IMG/VR virus record: IMGVR_UViG_3300020469_000232
Coordinates: 1-26,062 of that record
Source: a virus
Strand: one strand, 5' to 3'
Length of the DNA: 26,062 bases
In this document: positions 2,586 to 18,031 of the stretch, piece by piece
Layout: each line of letters opens with the position of its first letter
Numbering within the stretch: position 1 is the stretch's first letter
Notes under the pieces: generated by a model
Databases searched by the model: none
What the model saw: only the letters and a program-made list of their open reading frames with translations
Told to the model about the DNA's origin: nothing
Program-made: the position numbers and the translations under genes

Positions 2586-3136
2586 CTTTTCTCATTATAT
2601 TGAGGGTTACTGGATGCGTGGTACTGCAATCCATCAAACAAAACGAATCTTCCTTGTCTTGGTTCGACCTTCTCTTGTATCTCTAACTTCTGTGGTGTAC
2701 CATCATACTTGTTCTTAAAGAAGTATGTTGCACCATCAGAGTCATTAACATAATAGAGTATTGTCCAATGAGGTTGATCAAAATCCACGTGTGGAGTGTG
2801 ATACAGATGTTTTGTTTCCTTTCTAGTTAAAAGATTGATCTTAATACGTCTGAACTGACCAAACTCTATGTCATTATTTGCTGCTATCCATTTCCATATT
2901 GGTTCTGTTATTCTTTCGTATGCAGTAGGAGATACAACAGACCCTAACGTGTCTATAACAGTGTGTTGAAATTGTATATCCTCACCCGAAAGTGAATCTT
3001 TAATACTTGTATTGAACTCTGTATCATACGAGGTTGTCTCACTCTGTAGATACCACGGCCAATATGGGTTATGTAATAGTCTTGCTTTGGTTGGTTCGGA
3101 GATGTTACTCGGTACCTGACCTATCAGAAATGTCAT
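2504..3136 (-). CDS. 2-oxoglutarate/Fe(II)-dependent oxygenase (first copy)
   Basis: A 210-residue protein with a prolyl-4-hydroxylase-type double-stranded beta helix. H116 and D118 in HTPHVDFD and H173 in QYHASSNP are the expected iron ligands. R184 in KRCVVNFNF is in place to bind 2-oxoglutarate. TILYYVND and RFVLFDGL are typical core strands. The substrate is unknown; phage members may hydroxylate proteins or modify nucleotides. I take the ATG at 3136 as the start, since the longer reading begins with TTG at 3148. It overlaps the upstream gene by 32 bases and follows the RNR genes in the same unit. Confidence 0.85.
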   Translation of the reverse strand: MTFLIGQVPSNISEPTKARLLHNPYWPWYLQSETTSYDTEFNTSIKDSLSGEDIQFQHTVIDTLGSVVSPTAYERITEPIWKWIAANNDIEFGQFRRIKINLLTRKETKHLYHTPHVDFDQPHWTILYYVNDSDGATYFFKNKYDGTPQKLEIQEKVEPRQGRFVLFDGLQYHASSNPQYNEKRCVVNFNFTSSISENLSTTFAENPEIT

Positions 3137-3419
3137 AATTAATTTCAAAGTTTGATAAACCTTCTACCTCAGACTTTGTTTCTATGATCTTAGGTTTAGG
3201 TTGAGATTCATCCCATTCTTTATGAATCTGTTCGACCTGTGAGTCTACAGATTTCATAGTATTCTCGATCTTTTGTTCTATCCACTTATCTTTTAACCAC
3301 GCTATCAATCCAAGCAACAGATGAGAGATTGGGAAGCGTTGCTTCTTTGCCCACCTCTCTGCCTTTGCATACCAAGGGTCAACACCCTTACCAAACTGTT
3401 TCTCAAAGTTTAAACCCAC
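3105..3419 (-). CDS. Unknown protein between nrdB and the oxygenase
   Basis: A 104-residue protein that starts with GTG inside the last codons of nrdB (17-base overlap). It has a basic N-terminal part (DPWYAKAERWAKKQRF), a short hydrophobic stretch HLLLGLIAWL (about 34-43) that could be a membrane-associated helix, a probable coiled coil (KIENTMKSVDSQVEQIHKEW) and an acidic C-terminus. I do not recognise the family. In other T4-like phages a glutaredoxin gene is often near nrdB, but there is no CxxC here, so it is not one. Confidence 0.7.
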   Translation of the reverse strand: MGLNFEKQFGKGVDPWYAKAERWAKKQRFPISHLLLGLIAWLKDKWIEQKIENTMKSVDSQVEQIHKEWDESQPKPKIIETKSEVEGLSNFEINYDISDRSGTE

Positions 3420-4584
3420 TGAATGTGTTCTTCTTTACGTTTTGTTTGATAGCACCAACAACATAAGACTCTATTTCAGTTTCCTGTGGAGCATTCTGTT
3501 GTCCTTTGCTATTTAGCCAGTGTTGTGTCCACGGTAGAGGGTTATTTCTGAGTGGAATATCATAGACAGGACTCAAACCGATTGCTTTCATTCTACGATT
3601 AGCAATCCATTCAACATACTGATGTAGTAATGTTGCATTTAATCCAATCATAGTTCCATTACTAAACAAATAATCAGCCCACTCTTTCTCTTCTTCTACT
3701 GTTTTCTTAAACATACCATAGACATTCTGTTCTTCTTCTTTCATTATCTGTAGTATGTCTTCGTCATCTCCTTGTGCCCACTTACTTAAGATCTGTTGGG
3801 TGAGTACAAGATGTTGAGACTCGTCTCTTGCGATGAGGGAAATGATCTTTGCTGATCCTTCCATAAGTTTGAGTTCCCCAAAACCAAAGCTACAAGCAAA
3901 GCTAACGTAAAAGCGTATTCCCTCCAGTATGTTAACATTGACAACTGCCCTGTAGAGATGTCTCTTGAGTTCTTTTAGAGTCCAAGTTGATGTTGGACTC
4001 TCTTTCCAATCTGGTTTCCATAAATTACTTTGTCCATATTCTTGTGCATAGTTTAAGAAGTCATCGTATGCCTTTGTGACAGACTGTGCTCTTGCTATAA
4101 TCTTTTCATCGTCAAGGATAGAATCAATTACTTCTGATGGATCTGAGTACACATTCTTGATGATATATGTATATGATTGACTATGAATCATCTCCATAAA
4201 CTGCCATACATTCATAGCAGACTCTAACTCAGGTAAAGATACCCAAGGCATAAATGCCATCCCAGGTCCTCTACCCTGTACAGAGTCTAAAAGTATCTGA
4301 TACTTTAAGTTACTTGTAAAGATATGCTTTTGTGGTTCAGTTAATTGTTGATAGTCTCCTCTATCCTTCTGTAAAGATACCTCTTCGGGTCTCCAGAAAT
4401 AACTTAACTGTTGCTGTGTCAATTTTTCAAAGACAGGATACTTTTGTTTATCGTATCTTTGTACACCTAGAGGTTCCCCAAAGAACATAGGTTGTTTTGT
4501 ATGATCGTGTTTGTGCTTATTAAAAACAGTAACTCCTTTAATTTTTTTATCTTCAGAGTTTAGTTTAAACTTTGCAACTGTCAC
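3403..4584 (-). CDS. nrdB: Ribonucleoside-diphosphate reductase, beta subunit (class Ia type)
   Basis: A 393-residue protein, close to T4 NrdB (388). It holds the di-iron centre and tyrosyl radical that start catalysis in NrdA. Likely ligands are D100, E131 and H134 (FMEMIHSQSY), E221, E255 and H258 (ARDESQH), with radical Tyr138 four residues after H134. FFGEPLGVQRYD and FFWRPEEVSLQKD-type segments near 34-74 are typical of phage NrdB. The start is GTG at 4584 with GGAGGA seven bases upstream; this Shine-Dalgarno is encoded within the last codons of nrdA, whose frame it overlaps by 20 bases. All key residues are present, so it should be active. Confidence 0.97.
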   Translation of the reverse strand: MTVAKFKLNSEDKKIKGVTVFNKHKHDHTKQPMFFGEPLGVQRYDKQKYPVFEKLTQQQLSYFWRPEEVSLQKDRGDYQQLTEPQKHIFTSNLKYQILLDSVQGRGPGMAFMPWVSLPELESAMNVWQFMEMIHSQSYTYIIKNVYSDPSEVIDSILDDEKIIARAQSVTKAYDDFLNYAQEYGQSNLWKPDWKESPTSTWTLKELKRHLYRAVVNVNILEGIRFYVSFACSFGFGELKLMEGSAKIISLIARDESQHLVLTQQILSKWAQGDDEDILQIMKEEEQNVYGMFKKTVEEEKEWADYLFSNGTMIGLNATLLHQYVEWIANRRMKAIGLSPVYDIPLRNNPLPWTQHWLNSKGQQNAPQETEIESYVVGAIKQNVKKNTFSGFKL

Positions 4585-6871
4585 AGTCTTCCTCCAGTTC
4601 TAGTGAATTTAATAGATCATCAAGTGCAGGAGAAGACATACCGACTCCCTGTGGAATAATTGGATCTTCTAGATCCTTCTTCGCATCATATGTATTTTGA
4701 TAGTAACTTGTTTTCCAACCGTACTTATAGGTTGTTAGTAAATCAAGCATCATAACATCCATTGGTACCTCATTGTCTTCATAGTTCTCTGGATTATAAC
4801 TCCAGTTTCCACTGATACCTTGGTCAAAGAATTTCTGCATTACAGATACAACTTTTATATACCCTTCGTTAGATGGCATATCCCACAACAATGTATATTT
4901 AGATTTTAGATGAGGGAAGCCAGGCACTATTTGTTTAAGAGGTCCTTTCTTCGATTTCTTAATGGACAGGTATGCTCTAGGAGGTTCGATTCCGTTTGTG
5001 GCATTTGACACAATGGAACTACTCTCCGAAGGCATCTGTGCGGACAATGTTGAGTGCCTGAGACCGTAGGTTGCGATATCATTCCGTAGACCATCCCAAT
5101 CATATTTTAAAGGGAAATTAGTAATTTCATCAACTTCGTTCTTATATGTATCAATAGGAAGAATTCCATCAGCATACTTAGTACGGTGGAAGTACTCACA
5201 CTTACCTTTCTCTTGTGCTATTTGATTGCTTGACTTGAGTAAGAAGTATTGGAATGCTTCTGTTAGTTCGTGTGTAAGATCATATGCTTCCTGATCATTA
5301 TACTTAACACCATTCTTGGCAAAGTAATGTGCAAGACCAATGAATCCAACACCTAATGATCTACGTGCTAGTGTGCTACGTTTTGCTGCCTCTACAGGGT
5401 ACTCCTGATAATCAATGATCTCTTCAAGACCACGCACTGCAAGATCACATAGTTCTTCTAGTTGATTTACCTGTGTAATTTTACCTACGTTAATAGCAGA
5501 TAGAATACACAATGCAATCTCACCTTCCTTGTCATCAATATGTTGAATAGGAGTTGTAGGTAATGTAATCTCTTGACAGAGGTTACTCATACTTACTTTG
5601 TCTTTGAATGAACTATGAGTATTACAGTGGTCAATATTCATAATATAGATACGACCTGTCTCTGACCTCTCCTTAATAAGATTATGGAATAGGTTGTGTG
5701 CTTCCATAGTCTTTCTTGGGATGCTTGAATCTGTTTCATACATCTCATACATTTCATCAAACTTATCAGTACCAAACGCTTCATATAAACCAGGTACATC
5801 GTTTGGAGAGAAGAGACTCACTTCACCATTAGCAATATACCTTTGGTAAAAGAGGGAACTAATCTGTATACTGTAGTCCAGTTTTCTTACACGGTTATCT
5901 TCTGTTCCTTTATTATTCTTAAGGACAATAATATCTTCTATTTCTGAGTGCCAGATGGGGAAGTGGACAGTTGCTGATCCACCTCTGATGCCATTTTGAG
6001 TGCAGCATCTGACAGTTGCTTCAAACTTTTTGAGGAAAGGGATAACACCTGTGTGTTGAACTTCACCACCCCTGATTTTACTGTTGATCGCACGGATCCT
6101 ACCTGCGTTGATGCCGATTCCAGCACGCTGTGCGACATATTTGCCAATAGCCATATCGCTAGAAAAGATACCATCGAGGGTGTCATCAACATCAACCAGA
6201 ACACAAGATGCAAATTGGCGAAGAGGTGTCCTGACTCCTGCGAGCACTGGTGTCGGTACGTTGATTTTTCCTTTGGAGGTTGAGTTGTAGTATCGTTTGA
6301 CATAATCGAGTCTTGTGTCCTTTGGATAGTTTTGGAATAAAGTTGCTGCCACCATTATGTACATATACTGAGGTGTCTCATAGAGACTCCCAGTTGATCT
6401 ATCTTGTACAAGATACTTGTCTACGATCTGACGTAGACCAGCATAGGTAAAAATATAATCACGTTCGTGATCAATAAAAGAATCAATCTCATCCCATTCT
6501 TCGTCTGAATATTTATTTAAAATGCTTCCATCATACACACCTTCTTGTGTGCACTTCTCTACGTGTGATTTTAGATGAACCATTCCTTTCATCCACTCAG
6601 GAAATACTTGCTTCTGAATGGTGTATAGAAGGAGTCTAGCAGCAACGTATTGATAGTTAGGTGACTCTTCACTTATAAGGTCATTAGCAGAACGAATAAG
6701 GATGCTCTGAATATCTTCAGAACGAATCCCATCAGTAAACTGAAGATTAGAATTCATCTCTACCTGAGATGCACTCGTTCCTGCAAGACCATCACAGGCA
6801 AACTCAACCATTTTATGAATCTTATCTAGGTTGAGAGGTTCGGTAGTACCGTTCCTTTTAATTACATTCAT
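4565..6871 (-). CDS. nrdA: Ribonucleoside-diphosphate reductase, alpha subunit (class Ia type)
   Basis: The catalytic subunit, about 768 residues, reduces ribonucleotides to deoxyribonucleotides for phage DNA synthesis. An ATP-cone-like N-terminus (NVIKRNGTTEPLN) is followed by the active-site set: C223 (FASCVLVD), N430/C432/E434 in SNLCQEI, and C455 (ALCILSAINVG). Near residue 730 is YYQNT, the two tyrosines of the radical path. The C-terminal DCDSCKV carries the CxxC pair re-reduced by thioredoxin or glutaredoxin. I chose the ATG at 6871 because it overlaps the primase stop as ATGA; an ATG four codons earlier (6883) is also possible. nrdB follows with a 20-base overlap. Confidence 0.97.
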   Translation of the reverse strand: MNVIKRNGTTEPLNLDKIHKMVEFACDGLAGTSASQVEMNSNLQFTDGIRSEDIQSILIRSANDLISEESPNYQYVAARLLLYTIQKQVFPEWMKGMVHLKSHVEKCTQEGVYDGSILNKYSDEEWDEIDSFIDHERDYIFTYAGLRQIVDKYLVQDRSTGSLYETPQYMYIMVAATLFQNYPKDTRLDYVKRYYNSTSKGKINVPTPVLAGVRTPLRQFASCVLVDVDDTLDGIFSSDMAIGKYVAQRAGIGINAGRIRAINSKIRGGEVQHTGVIPFLKKFEATVRCCTQNGIRGGSATVHFPIWHSEIEDIIVLKNNKGTEDNRVRKLDYSIQISSLFYQRYIANGEVSLFSPNDVPGLYEAFGTDKFDEMYEMYETDSSIPRKTMEAHNLFHNLIKERSETGRIYIMNIDHCNTHSSFKDKVSMSNLCQEITLPTTPIQHIDDKEGEIALCILSAINVGKITQVNQLEELCDLAVRGLEEIIDYQEYPVEAAKRSTLARRSLGVGFIGLAHYFAKNGVKYNDQEAYDLTHELTEAFQYFLLKSSNQIAQEKGKCEYFHRTKYADGILPIDTYKNEVDEITNFPLKYDWDGLRNDIATYGLRHSTLSAQMPSESSSIVSNATNGIEPPRAYLSIKKSKKGPLKQIVPGFPHLKSKYTLLWDMPSNEGYIKVVSVMQKFFDQGISGNWSYNPENYEDNEVPMDVMMLDLLTTYKYGWKTSYYQNTYDAKKDLEDPIIPQGVGMSSPALDDLLNSLELEEDCDSCKV

Positions 6872-9919: not shown

Positions 9920-9937
9920 TTCGGTTTATGAACCGAA
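9920..9937 (-). other. Perfect hairpin at the 3' end of the Ig-like virion gene
   Basis: TTCGGTT (9920-9926) and AACCGAA (9931-9937) form a 7-bp stem with a four-base loop, covering the last codons and stop of the gene at 9926-10750. No T run follows on the minus strand, so it is not a standard terminator. It may stabilise or mark the end of the abundant virion mRNA. Confidence 0.5.
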
Positions 9938-10750
9938 TGTTAATGTAGCAGCACCGTTAGTGTACTTAGTAGTAGCACCTTTGCTTGTATTTAACACGCA
10001 ACGATACTTGTATCCATTAAGTGTTGTTCCACCAAGTCCACTGTATGCAAGAGTTGCAGTAGTGAAGTCAGCGTATGTGATACCAGTGTCTGTGTTAGCA
10101 GCGATATCTACCCAACGAGTAGTAGCACTTGCTGTCTGTCTCTGCCATTTGAATGACTTAGTACCAGACTGATCAACTGTGAATGCAGCAACGAATGTTC
10201 CAGCACCACTAGATGAAGTAGAGTTAGCGGGTTGTGTACCAACTGTGATAGTTTCAAGTACGTCTGCTGCTAATGTATCATCAGCATCATCACCAGATGT
10301 TCCAGCAGCAACCTTCATAGGTACAAGACATTCTGCCTTGTGCTTTGCTGTACCATTGTGTGTTTGATACGTGCGATATAACCACCAGCCAGGTCCTGAT
10401 ATGCCACGTGATTTGTTAGATGCAATTCCATCTTCTGTTGTGTCAACAAACACAAGGTCGTATGAATTACTATCTCCACCTTTAATTACAAATTCTGCAA
10501 CTGATTTAGGTGGTGTTCTCCTTACAACAGATGCAGCAGCAACTGTTGCTGTACCTCCTGCATATACTTTGTGTAGTTCTATTGCTGTTGTACTTGTTAC
10601 CTGTTTAACAATGTAAGCGACGGAAGAAATTTCCAACACGTCACCAACAACAACTGTATCGCCAGCATTTTTTGATACAGTAGCGTCTCCGTTGGTGACT
10701 CCTATTGTATTTGAAAATGCAGCAGCGTCAATTTTTCCGACGACAGACAT
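9926..10750 (-). CDS. Virion structural protein with C-terminal Ig-like domain
   Basis: A 274-residue protein, rich in Ala, Thr, Ser, Gly and Val, with a composition typical of virion proteins. The N-terminal part is beta-rich with an AGDTVVVGDVLEI segment. The middle holds GISGPGWWLYRTYQTHNG, which I recognise as conserved in cyanophage structural proteins. From about 190 an Ig-like fold follows (TVDQSGTKSFKWQRQ ... YSGLGGTTLNGYKYRCVLN), with the Trp and Tyr-x-Cys spacing of such domains. Ig-like domains decorate phage capsids and tails and may bind cell surfaces. A perfect T4 late promoter lies 37 bases upstream, supporting strong late expression. It may be a head decoration or tail protein; which one cannot be told. 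Confidence 0.87.
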   Translation of the reverse strand: MSVVGKIDAAAFSNTIGVTNGDATVSKNAGDTVVVGDVLEISSVAYIVKQVTSTTAIELHKVYAGGTATVAAASVVRRTPPKSVAEFVIKGGDSNSYDLVFVDTTEDGIASNKSRGISGPGWWLYRTYQTHNGTAKHKAECLVPMKVAAGTSGDDADDTLAADVLETITVGTQPANSTSSSGAGTFVAAFTVDQSGTKSFKWQRQTASATTRWVDIAANTDTGITYADFTTATLAYSGLGGTTLNGYKYRCVLNTSKGATTKYTNGAATLTFGS

Positions 10751-10787: not shown

Positions 10788-10795
10788 TATTTATA
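10788..10795 (-). promoter_or_regulatory. T4-type late promoter TATAAATA
   Basis: The minus-strand octamer TATAAATA matches the T4 late promoter consensus exactly. It lies 37 bases before the ATG of the Ig-like virion gene and just after a terminator-like hairpin (10807-10845). In T4 such sites are read by RNA polymerase with gp55, gp33 and the sliding clamp. Confidence 0.85.
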
Positions 10796-12712: not shown

Positions 12713-13180
12713 TTAGTGTTTGTGACTTTCAGCGATAACTGTTTCTAATTGATCAACAGCCACCATACTATGTAGATTGTCAGACTCATCGATGATGTCG
12801 TAATGAGTAACTATATGTGTGTTACCATCTGCATCTGGTTGATCCATCTCAACTAAAGTGTGTGCTTCTGGTACAGTCTTACATAGACCTAACTCAGCGT
12901 GCTCAACATACTTAGCACAGATGTGGGTCTCTTTGCCCATTGCTTTTGCTACAGTCTTTCTCTTGTTGAGAAGATACTTATCACTCTTATCGTGATCTCC
13001 ATCGTTGTCGATGTCTTTATCTTCTTTACCAACTGGATCTAACTTTTTCTTTGCTGCTTCTTTTAACTCAGCAATTTGGTTTGAGATGATGGTACGGATG
13101 GCTTGTTCTTCTGACATAATCTGTTCCTTTTTAGGATTAACAATAACTTGAGTTTTTTTGGATTTGGATTTTTTAGGCAT
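12713..13180 (-). CDS. Virion-associated protein with EF-hand-like calcium loop
   Basis: A 155-residue protein. After a Lys-rich N-terminus and a helical segment (SEEQAIRTIISNQIAELKEA), residues 55-70 read KDIDNDGDHDKSDKYL, with D58, D60, D62, D64 and D67 forming an EF-hand or dockerin-like calcium loop. I recognise this motif from many cyanophage structural-region proteins. The C-terminal half (ICAKYVEHAELGLCKTVPEA, HIVTHYDIIDES) looks globular, with two Cys. The ATG at 13180 overlaps the upstream stop (TAATG); an internal ATG at residue 22 is an alternative start. Calcium could help assembly or folding. Confidence 0.75.
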   Translation of the reverse strand: MPKKSKSKKTQVIVNPKKEQIMSEEQAIRTIISNQIAELKEAAKKKLDPVGKEDKDIDNDGDHDKSDKYLLNKRKTVAKAMGKETHICAKYVEHAELGLCKTVPEAHTLVEMDQPDADGNTHIVTHYDIIDESDNLHSMVAVDQLETVIAESHKH

Positions 13181-13899
13181 TAGAATTTGGGGAATTCTTT
13201 TTTAAAAGCATCAGATGCTTCCTTGTGCTTACCAGAGTTTGTGAGTTTCTTGATAGCATCAAGTTTCGCACGCTTCTTTAATTGTTCTGGTGTTGCCTGT
13301 TCTTCCTGTATCCCTACTCTAGCTCTCCACGAACTAGACTTAGGATCCTTAAGTTCTTCTCTATCCTTCTCGAATGTTTCTTGAATAGCTAACATTCTTC
13401 GGACTCTATCTACTCTAGATTCCATACTGGTTTCTTCTGTATTAGTTTCTTCATTCTTAATTTCTTTTTCTGGTACTTCGTGTGGGATAACATTTCCATC
13501 AGCATCTTTCTCGTGATGTTCTGCTACCACTTCTTCTTTTTGTACAACGTTTGTACCAGTACCTTCAACTCCACCTTTGTATCCTGCTTTCTTAGCGTCA
13601 CCTTTTGCTTCTATAGACTTCATAGCAGCAGATGTTGATCCTTCAGTGGATGATTTCTCTTTTGGTGTTTCGATCTTGCCACTAGCAGCAGATGGTTTTG
13701 CGTTGATTGTATTTGCAAGTGCAGTTTCTAGAACTATTGCAGCAATCTCAAGCTGTGTTTTACCTGTCAATCTCTCATTAATATATTTTTGTACAGCATC
13801 ACCTTCGTAATTATGTTGTGCATACTCGACAACATAGGTTACTGATTGTATATCCTGATGATTATACTTGATGAGCTTCTGTGCTAAATTTAGATCCAT
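13180..13899 (-). CDS. Acidic/basic repetitive protein, probable virion or scaffold protein
   Basis: A 239-residue protein with two parts. Residues 1-65 look folded and helical (MDLNLAQKLIKYNHQDIQSV, INERLTGKTQLEIAAIVLE). The rest is mostly disordered and charged, with KEEVVAEHHEKDADGN, then SRVDRVRRMLAIQETFEKD and RARVGIQEEQATPEQLKKR, ending in a helical basic tail. This resembles other phage head-interior proteins, but no family is certain. A CTAAATA motif lies 20 bases before its ATG. It is coupled by TAATG to the calcium-loop protein. Confidence 0.7.
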   Translation of the reverse strand: MDLNLAQKLIKYNHQDIQSVTYVVEYAQHNYEGDAVQKYINERLTGKTQLEIAAIVLETALANTINAKPSAASGKIETPKEKSSTEGSTSAAMKSIEAKGDAKKAGYKGGVEGTGTNVVQKEEVVAEHHEKDADGNVIPHEVPEKEIKNEETNTEETSMESRVDRVRRMLAIQETFEKDREELKDPKSSSWRARVGIQEEQATPEQLKKRAKLDAIKKLTNSGKHKEASDAFKKEFPKF

Positions 13900-13918: not shown

Positions 13919-15085
13919 CTATTTAGTGGTTACTTGTTTTTTGAAGTCGGAAAACTTCTTGACTGATTGTCCAGGTGTCATTGCTTGTACAGCACTTCTG
14001 ATAGTATCTTGCCCGACTTTCCAGTCGTTACCAGTACCACCATCATCTGCTGATGGATGCTTTTCCACCACTTCATTTAATGAAGTCAACCAACAATTAA
14101 ATTCCCAATCGTGTTCATCTTTAAAGATGACGTAGTTTGTACCACGGTAAACTACTTCTCCACGTACCCCTGTGTCGGAGTGTTCTACAAGTGTACCTAA
14201 TGAGAATATCTCACCAGATATATATGCTTCACGTAGATCATCTTGTGCAAGTTTGGGTGCAATCTTCCACAATTCTGTCACTTGTTCTTCCTCTGGTGCA
14301 TCTGAGATGCCCATACCCTTACGTACTTCTTCCATCAATTTCTTACCGCCAGAGAATCCTTTTGGTAATCCTTTTGAGAATCCTTCAAAATCACCTGATG
14401 CTGCATAAGTACGCATCTTAGATGCACTCATACCCTCGACACCATCGGCATCGGGGTCTCTTTCACCAGCAGATACTACACTGAGTTCTGCAAAGTCATA
14501 TGCCACACCATTATATTTTTCAAGTAGTGCTTTGAATTCTGATACACGATCAGAACCAACGACCATAGTAACACCTGAGTAACCTTCTTGATTTAATGTT
14601 GATAATACATTGAAAATGTTTGACATATCACCATCGTTAACAATAGCATCAGAGTGTTCTTTAAACATCTGTTGCATAAATTGTATCTTGGTCTCTGGTT
14701 CCAATGGATTCTTTTTAGGATCCACTGTTCTGCTTGGGTATATCCTGTAGGCATCTGCTCCTTCAGCAGCGACTGTGCTTAAAAGTTTTTCGTGTCCTAC
14801 AGTTGGAGGATTAAAGCGACCAAAAGTTAATGCAATAGTACCAAGTCCTTCTCCACCGTTCTCTTCTTGATGAGCATCTTCTTCAGCACCTTGGTTTGCA
14901 CCTTGTGTTGCTTGATCTGCTTCTGCTTTAGAGACAGCGACAAGACGTTCACCACCTTCAGACTTAGCAACAATGTTACCTTGTCTATCAGCATAGTATC
15001 CGTGTCCTGCGTGTGCAAGTCCTCGCTTTGCAGCAGCTTCACCAGCAACTGTTCGAGCTTCTTTTAGGAATTGACTTAACTTCAT
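13919..15085 (-). CDS. HxGH-family nucleotidyltransferase (NMN adenylyl/cytidylyltransferase-like)
   Basis: A 388-residue protein. Residues 1-80 form a small-residue and Glu-rich N-terminal extension (start MKLSQFLKEARTVAGEAAAK). The Rossmann-type nucleotidyltransferase core begins with TFGRFNPPTVGHEKLL (87-102), whose TVGH corresponds to the (H/T)xGH motif. VVGSDRVSEF follows at 175-184 and SASKMR at 220-225 replaces the usual ISxTxxR. A C-terminal part (RGEVVYRGTNYVIFKDEHDW, about 297-316) looks like a small beta domain of its own. Such enzymes join a nucleotide to NMN, phosphopantetheine or choline/glycerol phosphates. The substrate here is unknown. Its position among likely late genes, with a GATAAATA promoter, suggests a late or virion-carried enzyme. 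Confidence 0.85.
   Translation of the reverse strand: MKLSQFLKEARTVAGEAAAKRGLAHAGHGYYADRQGNIVAKSEGGERLVAVSKAEADQATQGANQGAEEDAHQEENGGEGLGTIALTFGRFNPPTVGHEKLLSTVAAEGADAYRIYPSRTVDPKKNPLEPETKIQFMQQMFKEHSDAIVNDGDMSNIFNVLSTLNQEGYSGVTMVVGSDRVSEFKALLEKYNGVAYDFAELSVVSAGERDPDADGVEGMSASKMRTYAASGDFEGFSKGLPKGFSGGKKLMEEVRKGMGISDAPEEEQVTELWKIAPKLAQDDLREAYISGEIFSLGTLVEHSDTGVRGEVVYRGTNYVIFKDEHDWEFNCWLTSLNEVVEKHPSADDGGTGNDWKVGQDTIRSAVQAMTPGQSVKKFSDFKKQVTTK
13920..13926 (-). promoter_or_regulatory. Candidate late promoter (CTAAATA) overlapping a stop codon
   Basis: Minus-strand CTAAATA shares its last bases with the TAG stop of the nucleotidyltransferase gene and lies 20 bases before the ATG at 13899. Same heptamer and placement as at 17346-17352. 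Confidence 0.4.
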
Positions 15086-15113
15086 TAACTACGTTATTGC
15101 TTTTTCCAATAGT

Positions 15114-15121
15114 TATTTATC
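15114..15121 (-). promoter_or_regulatory. Late promoter GATAAATA overlapping a stop codon
   Basis: Minus-strand GATAAATA fits the NATAAATA form of the T4-type late promoter (7 of 8 to TATAAATA). It overlaps the TGA stop of the upstream ligase-like gene and lies 28 bases before the ATG at 15085. Confidence 0.65.
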
Positions 15122-16313
15122 AACCCCAGTTCTTCTCGACTGTGAAGTTGGCACGGGAAAATTCTAGTCGGTCAACCAATTTCACTGCTTTTCCAGCTCT
15201 GATGGCAACAAATCCTTCGGGTGCAGTCACTTTAAACCCAGTATCAGTCTTGATATATGTACCTATTCCTTTTATTTTTTCTAACTGTTTAATTACTATA
15301 TTTTTTGCGTAGATTATGTTCATATAGGATGCAACAGTCATATAAACTGCTTGCTGATTCACTAATAAAAACTGCATTCCATCTACTTTTACCTTCTCCC
15401 ACTTCTTTTTCGCTGCTTCTGTCTTCTTCATACCAATCTCTTTGTCAAGAGTCTCACTAAAATATGCAGTAAATCCTACTGCTATCTTTCTAGCATTCTC
15501 TAACCTCATACCCTTTCTTACAAACCTGTTAAAGTATACCTTAAACATAGCATTGAACATAAACCTACCAGTACCAGTTCCAACAAGTGTATCCAAGAAT
15601 TTAGATGCTTGTTTTAGTGATCCTTCTGTTCGATTTACAGCAGCATTATACTTCTGTCTCTCATCTGAGGTGAACATAGACTGACGAGTTGCATCTTTAA
15701 ACTCAGCAGTAGCAGCATAAACATCTTTATGTGTACCAAAGTTTGCTCTGTTGACACCAAACTGTGCTTGCATAGCACCTAGTTCATTACCAACATATTT
15801 TGTATGAAATACTATACCAACAGTGGCATCGTTAACTTGTTTGTATATTGCTGATCCTTTTTCAACACAATATGTAATAGTGTTAGGTGTAAAAGTAATA
15901 CAGTTCTTACCTTTTATTTTCTGATAGTTCTTATCTCCATTAGTAAAGAGAAGATCACCTTGTATTACACCTTTAATACCTATCTTAGGTAGAAACTCTA
16001 GACATAATTTTAATTTCTTAGCAAGTTCACCTTGATATTCGTGAAAGGCAATGTCACTTTCATTGTATATTACTTTAGGATTTGTCTTATTGAATACTGA
16101 TTTTGTACCAACAAAAAATTGTTCTGTCTCAGGGTCAATACCACAGATAATAGCGGGTGCACCATCCCATTTAGTAGTAATCATCATACTACTAGGTTTT
16201 TCTGACAACATATCACCCAACTCTCTCAGGAAAGTGATAGCATTTTTGCCACCCTTTGTTCCATCGTTGAGTATATCGTCTTCTAGATGCTCTAAGTGTG
16301 TATTTTTTGCCAT
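15120..16313 (-). CDS. KxDG ligase-like nucleotidyltransferase (DUF6267-like)
   Basis: A 397-residue protein starting MAKNTHLEHLEDDILNDGTK. TTKWDGAPAIICGIDP (46-61) carries K48-W-D50-G51, the KxDG motif I in which ATP-dependent DNA ligases, RNA ligases and capping enzymes hold AMP or GMP on lysine. FVGTKSVF (67-74), GVIQGDLLFT (115-124) and VGIVFHTKY (165-173) sit where later ligase motifs would be. The pattern matches what I recall as DUF6267. The C-terminal half is basic, helical and unassigned. A nucleic-acid ligase or an enzyme that nucleotidylates another target is inferred. The ATG at 16313 is preferred over the longer reading from 16442, which would overlap the upstream gene by 122 bases. 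Confidence 0.75.
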   Translation of the reverse strand: MAKNTHLEHLEDDILNDGTKGGKNAITFLRELGDMLSEKPSSMMITTKWDGAPAIICGIDPETEQFFVGTKSVFNKTNPKVIYNESDIAFHEYQGELAKKLKLCLEFLPKIGIKGVIQGDLLFTNGDKNYQKIKGKNCITFTPNTITYCVEKGSAIYKQVNDATVGIVFHTKYVGNELGAMQAQFGVNRANFGTHKDVYAATAEFKDATRQSMFTSDERQKYNAAVNRTEGSLKQASKFLDTLVGTGTGRFMFNAMFKVYFNRFVRKGMRLENARKIAVGFTAYFSETLDKEIGMKKTEAAKKKWEKVKVDGMQFLLVNQQAVYMTVASYMNIIYAKNIVIKQLEKIKGIGTYIKTDTGFKVTAPEGFVAIRAGKAVKLVDRLEFSRANFTVEKNWG

Positions 16314-16320
16314 ACTATTA

Positions 16321-17319
16321 TTATACCATAGTTGCGTTAGTTCTGCCCGACACAAAAACTTTAGGATATATACCGACTCTTGCTCCTCTAAAGACTTGAT
16401 CGTCAACTTCAAACCTTCTGTCACTACGATAGGTAGCAGCAAAGAATGCTTCGTAGTCTCCTTTTGTAAATGATCTTACTCCTTCACTATTGTTATACAC
16501 TACGTGATCAGACCACTGTAACTCAAAACAATTATCCTCATTCTTTTTAGGTTTTAGTATTGGATCACCCTGCCCTACCATAGTTACATTCTCAATACCA
16601 TTCTTTTTCTGTCCATAGTTAGTACCAAACACTGACATACCTATAAGTTTAGTATCTTGTACCTTTTTATAGGTGGGTGTCTGTAATTTATTGTCTGCAA
16701 CATAACCTGACGTTGCTCTTAAAAATTCTTCTGTCTCAGGATGGTTTTGTATAGCACTTCCTGCTTGTTTAGATAGACCACCGTACTGTTGAAATGATTT
16801 TGCACCTCCTGCTTTCTTATGTGATATGTAAATGGCATCAATTTTTCTAGTACCTTTCATCTGTTCTATAACAAAATCTGCTTTAGCTTCTCTACCACTA
16901 ACTTTTTCAGTTACATCTCTCACACCCACACAATTTTCAAACTCACCTAAAGGTGTACAAATTTTTATAGGTCCCGATGGGATAAAAGACTTTACTAACT
17001 TATCAAGATTGTCCATAGCAACTTGTTCAGACTTCATTACATTTGCTCTACCCTTGATAGGTTTAGAAATGACACCTAGTGGCATCCAACCTGATTTATT
17101 ATTTACTGTTACGTGTGCACACTCAGATCTTTTGATCTTCTTAGATCTGTTACTCTTTAATTTAAATTTTGTGTTGGTAGCAATAGTGCGAATGATCTTT
17201 GTACCCTGTTCATTCCACAATAAAGCATTCTTTTCAGAATTTACAGTAAGTTCTAGGTTGTCCCACTCTGGATTGTTACCAATATATTGATCGAATTTTG
17301 CTGGTGATAGATTCGCCAC
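16321..17319 (-). CDS. Unknown protein with possible restriction-nuclease-like motif
   Basis: A 332-residue protein. Residues 1-100 are basic and beta-rich. A central segment reads GREAKADFVIEQ, then DAIYISHKKAGGAKSFQQYGG (split here for length: DAIYISHKKAG, then GAKSFQQYGG). The order Glu, Asp, strand, S-x-K, then QYGG resembles the core of PD-(D/E)XK nucleases, with KADF giving the Asp and ISHKK the Lys, but the second acid is not standard. No specific family recognised. The start is GTG at 17319 with AGGT upstream. A CTAAATA motif lies 26 bases before it. The ligase-like and HxGH genes follow with gaps of 7 and 34 bases, so the three may act together. Confidence 0.6.
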   Translation of the reverse strand: MANLSPAKFDQYIGNNPEWDNLELTVNSEKNALLWNEQGTKIIRTIATNTKFKLKSNRSKKIKRSECAHVTVNNKSGWMPLGVISKPIKGRANVMKSEQVAMDNLDKLVKSFIPSGPIKICTPLGEFENCVGVRDVTEKVSGREAKADFVIEQMKGTRKIDAIYISHKKAGGAKSFQQYGGLSKQAGSAIQNHPETEEFLRATSGYVADNKLQTPTYKKVQDTKLIGMSVFGTNYGQKKNGIENVTMVGQGDPILKPKKNEDNCFELQWSDHVVYNNSEGVRSFTKGDYEAFFAATYRSDRRFEVDDQVFRGARVGIYPKVFVSGRTNATMV

Positions 17320-17344: not shown

Positions 17345-18031
17345 CTATTTAGGAATAGGAGGTATATCAAACAGTACATCATTGATGTATCCTTCAGCAA
17401 ACTCAGGTGAGAACCATTTACTTAGAACTGCTTTAGTCTTTTTGTTCTTACGTTGTTGCATACAATAATATATTTGATCATCAAATCTCAGCATAGTATT
17501 GACCCAGTTATTATCTTTCTTCGCTTTGTTTACTACATCAACATAAAAATTGATAAACTCTTCAATCATACAACCATACAATGCTTTCTCATCTTCAGTA
17601 CGAAGACGCATAAACTGACAGTAAGGAGAGAATATATCTGCCCACTCTGGTAGTGGTCTCTTCTCCTTAAACTGATACTTGTTAGAAATTTTACTTAGTT
17701 TTTTATAAACGTTCTCTGTTTTATATACTGGTGATATATCTGCTATAGCAGCAGTAACTACAGTTGGTGTTGCAACAATGTCAGCACCAAAAATAGGTAT
17801 AGGGTAGTCTGGATCTGGGTATAGAACACAGTGCATTACCTCTATATTATCAGTATATCCAGTTTCTAAATGAACCTTACGAACACCACGACACTCGTGC
17901 ATCTCATTAACAATAAAGACATCATCCTTTTCTATAATAGGATACTCGTTATGATGAGATTTTAAATCTGGTAAATTTTCACAGGAGTCTCTAATTATAC
18001 TAGCAACGTGTTGTACTAGAGAGGATGTCAC
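17345..18031 (-). CDS. pcyA: Phycocyanobilin:ferredoxin oxidoreductase
   Basis: A 228-residue ferredoxin-dependent bilin reductase that reduces biliverdin IXa towards phycocyanobilin. Compared from memory with Synechocystis PcyA it keeps VRKVHLETG (H54, E56, like H74/E76), VMHCVLYPDP (H67, like H88) and IFGADIV (D84, like D105). AAIADISP, LPEWADIFSPYCQFMR, IYYCMQQRKN and a final VLFDIPP also match. All three catalytic residues are present. A PebS-type activity is less likely given this match. The GTG start at 18031 overlaps the mazG stop as GTGA, with GAAGGTG just upstream. The product may support light harvesting or signalling in the infected cell. Phage-borne pcyA is known from marine cyanophages. 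Confidence 0.93.
   Translation of the reverse strand: MTSSLVQHVASIIRDSCENLPDLKSHHNEYPIIEKDDVFIVNEMHECRGVRKVHLETGYTDNIEVMHCVLYPDPDYPIPIFGADIVATPTVVTAAIADISPVYKTENVYKKLSKISNKYQFKEKRPLPEWADIFSPYCQFMRLRTEDEKALYGCMIEEFINFYVDVVNKAKKDNNWVNTMLRFDDQIYYCMQQRKNKKTKAVLSKWFSPEFAEGYINDVLFDIPPIPK
17346..17352 (-). promoter_or_regulatory. Candidate late promoter (CTAAATA) overlapping the pcyA stop
   Basis: Minus-strand CTAAATA overlaps the TAG stop codon of pcyA and lies 26 bases before the GTG start at 17319. It marks the likely switch from the replication block to the late block. Confidence 0.45.

Follow-up and report, generated by a model that had tools for sequence, protein, structure and literature searches.

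A late gene cassette of T4-like marine phages that may combine a nuclease, a candidate ligase and a nucleotidyltransferase

Three adjacent genes, located at positions 13919 to 17319 of a 26,062-nucleotide stretch of viral DNA (record IMGVR_UViG_3300020469_000232; the whole stretch is referred to as the window), probably belong to a late-expressed "cut, join, transfer" cassette that T4-like cyanophages, pelagiphages and methylophages share, with the middle protein as the family's candidate ligase. The record in question is a contig of viral origin, and the window represents some 26 kb of a marine phage of the T4 type (Kyanoviridae). The first gene, nuc (16321 to 17319), encodes a type-II-restriction-like nuclease candidate of 332 residues with an SH3-like N-terminal domain; the second, DUF6267 (15120 to 16313), a ligase-like KxDG covalent-nucleotidyltransferase protein of 397 residues; and the third, NTase (13919 to 15085), an HxGH nucleotidyltransferase of 388 residues. 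These genes and all their features described below lie on the minus strand. The trio is more than a set of chance neighbours; its joint function we infer by reasoning from the parts.

Few viruses of the sea are more common than the T4-like cyanophages and pelagiphages, which possess a replication machine of the T4 type; yet a ligase gene is unrecognized in those that were checked. The presence of DUF6267 in all 16 complete Kyanoviridae genomes searched, its ligase-like motifs and an intein at its putative active site mean that a direct test can be made of what seals DNA or RNA in these phages. Furthermore, an exchangeable nuclease slot, together with an enzyme that a T4-type peptide apparently directs into the head, suggests a system for processing nucleic acids that is partly located in the particle. 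To our knowledge, it is the combination that is new: DUF6267 as the sole ligase candidate, an exchangeable slot marked by D..SxK, capsid-targeting peptides and a split intein at KWDG. The occurrence of NTase in virions was already known from published work.

DUF6267 as a candidate ligase

A first-pass annotation of the window, made from its letters alone, had described a nuclease-like, a KxDG ligase-like and an HxGH nucleotidyltransferase protein. The three open reading frames (ORFs) and their motifs are found where it placed them, except that the DUF6267 frame, listed with a TTG start at 16442, most likely begins at the ATG at 16313, which places K48 in KWDG. The three class assignments also find support, in an ordered set of motifs I, III, IV and V for DUF6267, in a REase_II profile match together with a conserved D..SxK for nuc, and in a PF01467 match above cut-off with both motifs conserved for NTase.

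DUF6267 matches PF19782 (E=2e-126); a literature search found no paper on it, nor any under "cytitidyltransferase", the annotation carried by relatives of NTase. Its ligase-type motifs occur in superfamily order. Motif I is KWDG (16161 to 16172), with K48 as the candidate nucleotidylated lysine. The pattern KxDGxP is conserved in 132 of 134 distinct members and K48 is kept in every intact one; of the two members outside the pattern, one is interrupted by an intein directly behind KWDG, whereas the other is a truncated or frameshifted ORF. The motif III-like Q118-G-D120 (15954 to 15962) is invariant among full-length forms, the motif IV-like E366-G-F-V369 (15207 to 15218) appears as EG[FYI]V in 184/186 members, and the motif V-like K378-L-V-D-R382 (15168 to 15182) as K[LIF]VxR in 180/186. 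An AlphaFold model (mean predicted local distance difference test score, pLDDT, 86.8) shows a core rich in beta strands and, ahead of the strands of motifs IV and V, an insertion of helices (216-344). In the short forms of P-SSM4, S-RIM2, S-SSM5 and ACG-2014f much of this helical insert is gone and motifs I, III, IV and V are kept. T4 RNA ligase 1 (rnlA, PF09511) resembles DUF6267 by eye in having KxDG after a strand ("TK-x-DG"), EG[YF]VA as motif IV and, behind it, K[IL] as motif V. When the model was compared with a viral structure library, its relatives included DUF6267-NTase fusions; the first other functionally named matches, after setting aside proteins named for cytidyltransferase, NrdB or SET domains, were two RNA ligases, both weak (E=0.034 and 0.98). 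As judged from sequence, the ligase-like reading is well supported by motifs, and not by the fold search considered below.

The putative active site is marked independently by an intein. In one locus (L162) the DUF6267 gene is fractured (2893 to 5215). Its first piece (2893 to 3396) encodes DUF6267 up to KWDG and then the N-terminal half of a split intein, which matches TIGR01445 above cut-off (E=2e-6) and begins at the residue following KWDG. An intervening ORF (3424 to 4077) separates this piece from the second (4055 to 5215), which encodes the C-terminal half of the intein, ending in VLVHN|SPAVF, and then the remainder of DUF6267. Inteins favour the catalytic sites of important proteins, and an insertion exactly at KWDG therefore marks it as an active site that probably functions. 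The arrangement, of which one instance was found in IMG/VR, resembles known fractured phage genes with split inteins.

The genomic distribution suggests what such an active site may be used for. DUF6267 is present in 16/16 complete Kyanoviridae genomes (S-CREM2, S-CAM7, ACG-2014f, HTVC008M, Melnitz-3, S-SZBM1, P-SSM4, S-SSM5, S-PM2, S-8S56, S-CAM3, S-CAM9, S-T4, S-RIM2, P-RSM6 and C48C1). None of these gave a Pfam match to an ATP-dependent DNA ligase or a T4-type RNA ligase (PF01068, PF09414, PF09511), while T4, the positive control, matches all three families. The NAD+-dependent (nicotinamide adenine dinucleotide-dependent) ligase family PF01653 was considered as well; searches of 12 records, including 8 from Kyanoviridae, did not detect it. 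Conversely, phiM12 is without DUF6267 and has all three ligase families. It has been reported that many quasicore genes in the replication group, to which the gp30 DNA ligase belongs, are absent from at least one marine cyanophage (Petrov et al., PMC2993671). Since DUF6267 occurs in all 16 genomes and no recognized ligase does, it is a good candidate for the missing ligase: it is the sole ligase-like gene found in the Kyanoviridae checked and may fill this role. Alternatively, these phages rely on the ligase of the host.

An exchangeable nuclease slot upstream of DUF6267

The nuclease-like reading of nuc is well supported by motifs and profile similarity. The protein matches the PADLOC REase_II model PDLC03459 (E=1.4e-6, residues 146-330), its homologue in S-CAM7 is annotated as "type-2 restriction enzyme", and a Pfam search gave no family match. 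Among 34 diverse relatives, five residues never vary (K146, D148, S166, Q178, G181) and four others hardly do (E98, H167, K168, Q177). In the AlphaFold model (pLDDT 91), E98 (17026 to 17028) is an acidic residue on helix 94-111, D148 (16876 to 16878) is a motif II-like aspartate that opens strand 149-155, and S166-H167-K168 (16816 to 16824), an S-x-K in place of D/E-x-K, closes strand 158-168. As modelled, this arrangement has the order of the PD-(D/E)XK core, with a serine replacing the second acid. Type II restriction endonucleases of this superfamily share with nuc the helix-borne glutamate and the D and SxK positions on consecutive predicted strands; nuc differs from them in its serine and, unlike in type II restriction systems, no methyltransferase gene is found among its neighbours.

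The position that nuc occupies was examined in 135 distinct DUF6267 loci offering 1 kb or more of upstream sequence. In 116 of them an ORF of 200 residues or longer ends just before DUF6267, with a median gap of about 25 nucleotides. BLAST groups 106 of these ORFs into seven clusters of at least three members, plus a few small ones; the cluster containing nuc has 35 members. A conserved, aligned D-x(n)-S-x-K was found in six of the seven clusters by a strict rule and is visible by eye in the seventh (e.g., DITVTADGRPVYLSLK), whereas the pattern is not conserved in any of ten control families taken from these loci, the sole apparent match among them being a slot paralogue. (A single motif expression applied to all clusters was too rough and was superseded by conservation within clusters and the control families.) Comparison of representative clusters with hhalign revealed no mutual profile similarity, and the shared D..SxK therefore rests on motif conservation rather than on demonstrated homology. 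From these patterns, the position before DUF6267 looks like a nuclease slot, the occupant of which is exchanged between lineages.

A nucleotidyltransferase carried in virions

NTase belongs to the HxGH class: it matches PF01467 above cut-off and phrog_395 with E=7e-91. The nucleotide-binding motif GRFNPPTVGH (14792 to 14821) and SASKMR (14411 to 14428), an ISSTxxR-type motif of HxGH enzymes, are conserved among 125 distinct relatives, nearly all of which keep TVGH and SASKMR. Both motifs are shared with the nicotinamide mononucleotide (NMN)/nicotinate-nucleotide adenylyltransferases and the cytidylyltransferases of PF01467. In contrast to the NMN adenylyltransferase (NMNAT) family, NTase scores far below the equivalog cut-offs (TIGR00482: 15.7 bits against 112) and adds an N-terminal tag and a C-terminal domain; a phmmer search against PDB sequences gave no matches. 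In the literature it has been interpreted as NMNAT-like (PMC9602691, PMC10665884).

The C-terminal domain is a separate ORF of 91 residues in S-PM2 and S-CAM3 (L057 9525-9800, L073 7521-7796, L063 7805-7996). It is annotated there as a ribonucleotide reductase subunit or as cytitidyltransferase, and the former name looks like a mis-annotation. phiM12 gp159 (L055 9005-10813) is a large homologue of the NTase-containing proteins of Stenotrophomonas phage DLP_6 and L162, in which HxGH and SASKMR have decayed (LKLNPATVEH), suggesting a role independent of catalysis. A linked loss of DUF6267 and of these motifs in phiM12 was considered and rejected, a second, intact phrog_395 NTase being encoded elsewhere in that genome.

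NTase begins with MKLSQFLKEA (15056 to 15085), a capsid-targeting peptide of the T4 type with an [FY][ILV]xE|A cleavage-like site. The T4 internal head proteins ipII and ipIII begin with MKTYQEFIAEA and share this M[KR]xxxF[IL]xEA-type decapeptide; in NTase, unlike in these proteins, it sits on an enzyme, and its cleavage is predicted only. Peptides of the ipII/ipIII type are used for loading foreign proteins into T4 heads (PMC3012670, PMC10229621). Tags of this type are found on 74/125 NTases as against 28/1249 other ORFs; since the relatives are not independent of one another, the p-value of this difference serves as a rough guide. By mass spectrometry, NTase has been detected in virions of S-SZBM1 (S-SZBM1_140; PMC9146016) and S-CREM2 (gp154; PMC10665884), and it is also reported in those of S-SCSM1 and S-CBWM1 (PMC9602691). 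The N-termini of S-SZBM1_140 (MRFRQFIIEA) and of gp154 (MKNFSSFLTEA) fit the tag. Virion carriage of NTase is thus supported, from homologues.

A similar tag occurs on 22/140 DUF6267 proteins (about 2% of other ORFs carry one) and on 13/178 slot or nuc-family proteins. Nuclease and DUF6267 are both tagged in three loci (L211, L222, L231), and slot nuclease tags are also seen in Melnitz-3 (L061), where the N-termini of nuclease and DUF6267 look alike. To judge from these N-termini, DUF6267, the nuclease or both may be packaged as well in tag-bearing marine relatives. Further ORFs near the cassette without an assigned function have a capsid-targeting-type N-terminus (L066 9242, L098 1244, L207 2420 and others), and the tag could help to draw up a catalogue of proteins that marine T4-like phages may inject.

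Late transcription and linkage of the three genes

Late expression, which the first-pass annotation had proposed from promoter-like motifs, agrees with the enrichment of ATAAATA across relatives. Of 107 slot genes, 60 have this box within the 70 nucleotides in front of them, as have 34 of 110 NTase genes, typically about 30 nucleotides upstream; the background is 1.9%. The same motifs had been proposed for all three genes, or small gaps in their place; family-wide they apply to the slot and NTase genes and not to DUF6267 (6/133), and in the window an exact box precedes NTase alone (15114 to 15120, about 29 nucleotides upstream of its start). Exact ATAAATA occurs three times in the window, with 9.4 expected by chance. 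The pattern fits two putative late transcription units, one of the slot gene and DUF6267 and the other of NTase and the genes that follow it.

The proposal that the genes co-occur in other phages is strongly borne out. In 97 of 105 loci with enough sequence, NTase follows DUF6267 at a downstream distance of no more than 3.5 kb. In the resequenced record of S-PM2, DUF6267 and NTase form a single ORF of 591 residues; further DUF6267-matching viral proteins of 599 to 947 residues, named as cytidyltransferases, are found in the viral structure library, and phrog_455 spans both proteins. In DLP_6, nuclease, DUF6267 and NTase stand together in a different context, beside thymidylate synthase and exonuclease VII.

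If the three proteins do act together, DUF6267 would charge K48 with a nucleotide and then activate and seal polynucleotide ends, replacing the missing gp30, Rnl1 or Rnl2. The slot nuclease would make or trim cuts, either in the DNA of the host or a competitor or in intermediates of recombination or packaging. NTase could supply or recycle a nucleotide cofactor, the closest named activity being NMNAT-like, or modify ends; its N-terminal peptide would scaffold it into the prohead, and it would be delivered along with the DNA. The T4 rnlA-denA neighbourhood, with the pseT end-repair genes, is comparable in that a nuclease gene (denA) adjoins an RNA ligase gene. Unlike it, the Kyanoviridae cassette is without kinase/phosphatase, has a different nuclease and contains an HxGH NTase instead. 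It could tentatively be imagined that DUF6267 is an unrecognized family-wide ligase from an undescribed branch of the KxDG superfamily, forming a unit with an exchangeable nuclease and a head-packaged NTase, a cut-and-seal module that is partly delivered with the DNA; this further-reaching version is possible rather than probable.

Opposing evidence and alternative explanations

Several observations weigh against a cassette built around a ligase. Motif V of DUF6267 is KxVxR and departs from KxK; in this, and in the roughly 130-residue helical insert that precedes its motif IV, the protein is unlike T4 RNA ligase 1, with which it has no sequence-significant homology. Of the two refuting outcomes that the first-pass annotation had named, lack of co-occurrence is contradicted by the strong linkage described above, but Foldseek searches of the confident models against PDB gave neither a ligase nor a nuclease fold, so that the balance is mixed. 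DUF6267 had no match at all, and nuc, the nuclease fold of which is putative, matched in its SH3-like N-terminal domain only. Alignment of DUF6267 by hhalign with T4 Rnl1 and Rnl2 profiles, which were built from viral contigs, was not significant (best P=0.027, in the motif IV/V stretch of Rnl1). A Pfam search of 21 DUF6267 members gave no ligase match, and profile hidden Markov model searches of PDB sequences with DUF6267 and with nuc gave chance-level matches only. DLP_6 has a DNA ligase in addition to DUF6267, and Vibrio phage 2.275 has DUF6267 plus all three ligase families. Virion carriage, which had been suggested for the whole trio, finds support for NTase only: S-SZBM1_141 and _142, assigned as DUF6267 and slot protein by gene order and length, are absent from the S-SZBM1 virion table (PMC9146016), and DUF6267 (gp87) from that of S-CREM2 (PMC10665884). 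Finally, DUF6267 lies far from NTase in S-CREM2, S-CAM7, S-T4 and ACG-2014f, and adjacency within Kyanoviridae partly reflects shared descent.

Four other explanations have to be weighed against the cassette. The three genes could be independent and kept adjacent by the conserved gene order of Kyanoviridae, with NTase as a virion-carried NMNAT-like enzyme that tops up NAD+ early in infection and with DUF6267 and the nuclease serving other functions. NTase is indeed the only member of the trio found in virions and read as NMNAT-like, has a late-promoter-like box of its own, and occurs without DUF6267 in phages such as EC.P1 and phiM12. We regard this as unlikely in view of the DUF6267-NTase fusions and of the trio in the different context of DLP_6; moreover, all nine DUF6267-positive records of a first set have NTase, as detected with phrog_395, a broad model that also matches in cellular control genomes, and none was a phage with DUF6267 and without NTase.

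In a second explanation, the slot is filled by restriction-type nucleases of a selfish or competitive kind that reside beside an important gene, are swapped by recombination and take no part in the activity of DUF6267 and NTase. The extreme sequence turnover in the slot and the similarity to type II restriction enzymes would suit such elements. It is nevertheless rather doubtful, for the slot protein is nearly always directly upstream of DUF6267 at a short distance, a late-promoter-like box is common to the two genes, and the position is retained in DLP_6.

Thirdly, DUF6267 might be a KxDG nucleotidyltransferase that does not join ends, serving in RNA capping, in protein nucleotidylation or in the control of the neighbouring nuclease. 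A motif V without its second lysine and the failure of Foldseek and profile comparisons to reach ligases can be read in this way; the two RNA ligases that appear, weakly, among the matches from the library of viral structures and the lack of any other ligase among those sought in these Kyanoviridae genomes make it improbable. A kit for counter-defence or takeover, made up of the whole trio, that is packaged in the head and injected like Alt and the internal proteins of T4, and that cuts host or competitor DNA and repairs phage nucleic acid on entry, would explain the tags on DUF6267 and slot proteins and the doubly tagged loci, and it too has little probability, given that NTase is the sole tagged protein of the trio in the window and that its partners went undetected in virions of S-SZBM1 and, for DUF6267, of S-CREM2.

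Neighbouring genes

Upstream of the trio, the minus strand carries genes for DNA polymerase, uvsX (identified by position and by relatives), the gp41 helicase, mazG and a bilin reductase. After it, on the same strand, follow head-protein genes, primase, nrdA, nrdB and talC. Another ATAAATA box (10788 to 10794, minus strand) lies about 38 nucleotides upstream of a head-protein gene (9926 to 10750). In S-CREM2 the products of the two genes directly downstream of NTase, gp155 and gp156 (L074 7492-8726, L070 8310-9683), are also virion proteins, as is S-SZBM1_139, encoded just downstream of NTase in S-SZBM1; the gene at 13180 to 13899 of the window and those following it may encode head-internal proteins. 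The bilin reductase gene (17345 to 18031, minus strand), located between mazG and nuc, scores above the NCBIfam cut-off for PcyA (phycocyanobilin:ferredoxin oxidoreductase); within the loci surveyed, a reductase of this type was detected in the closest relatives (L002-L007) and in no others.

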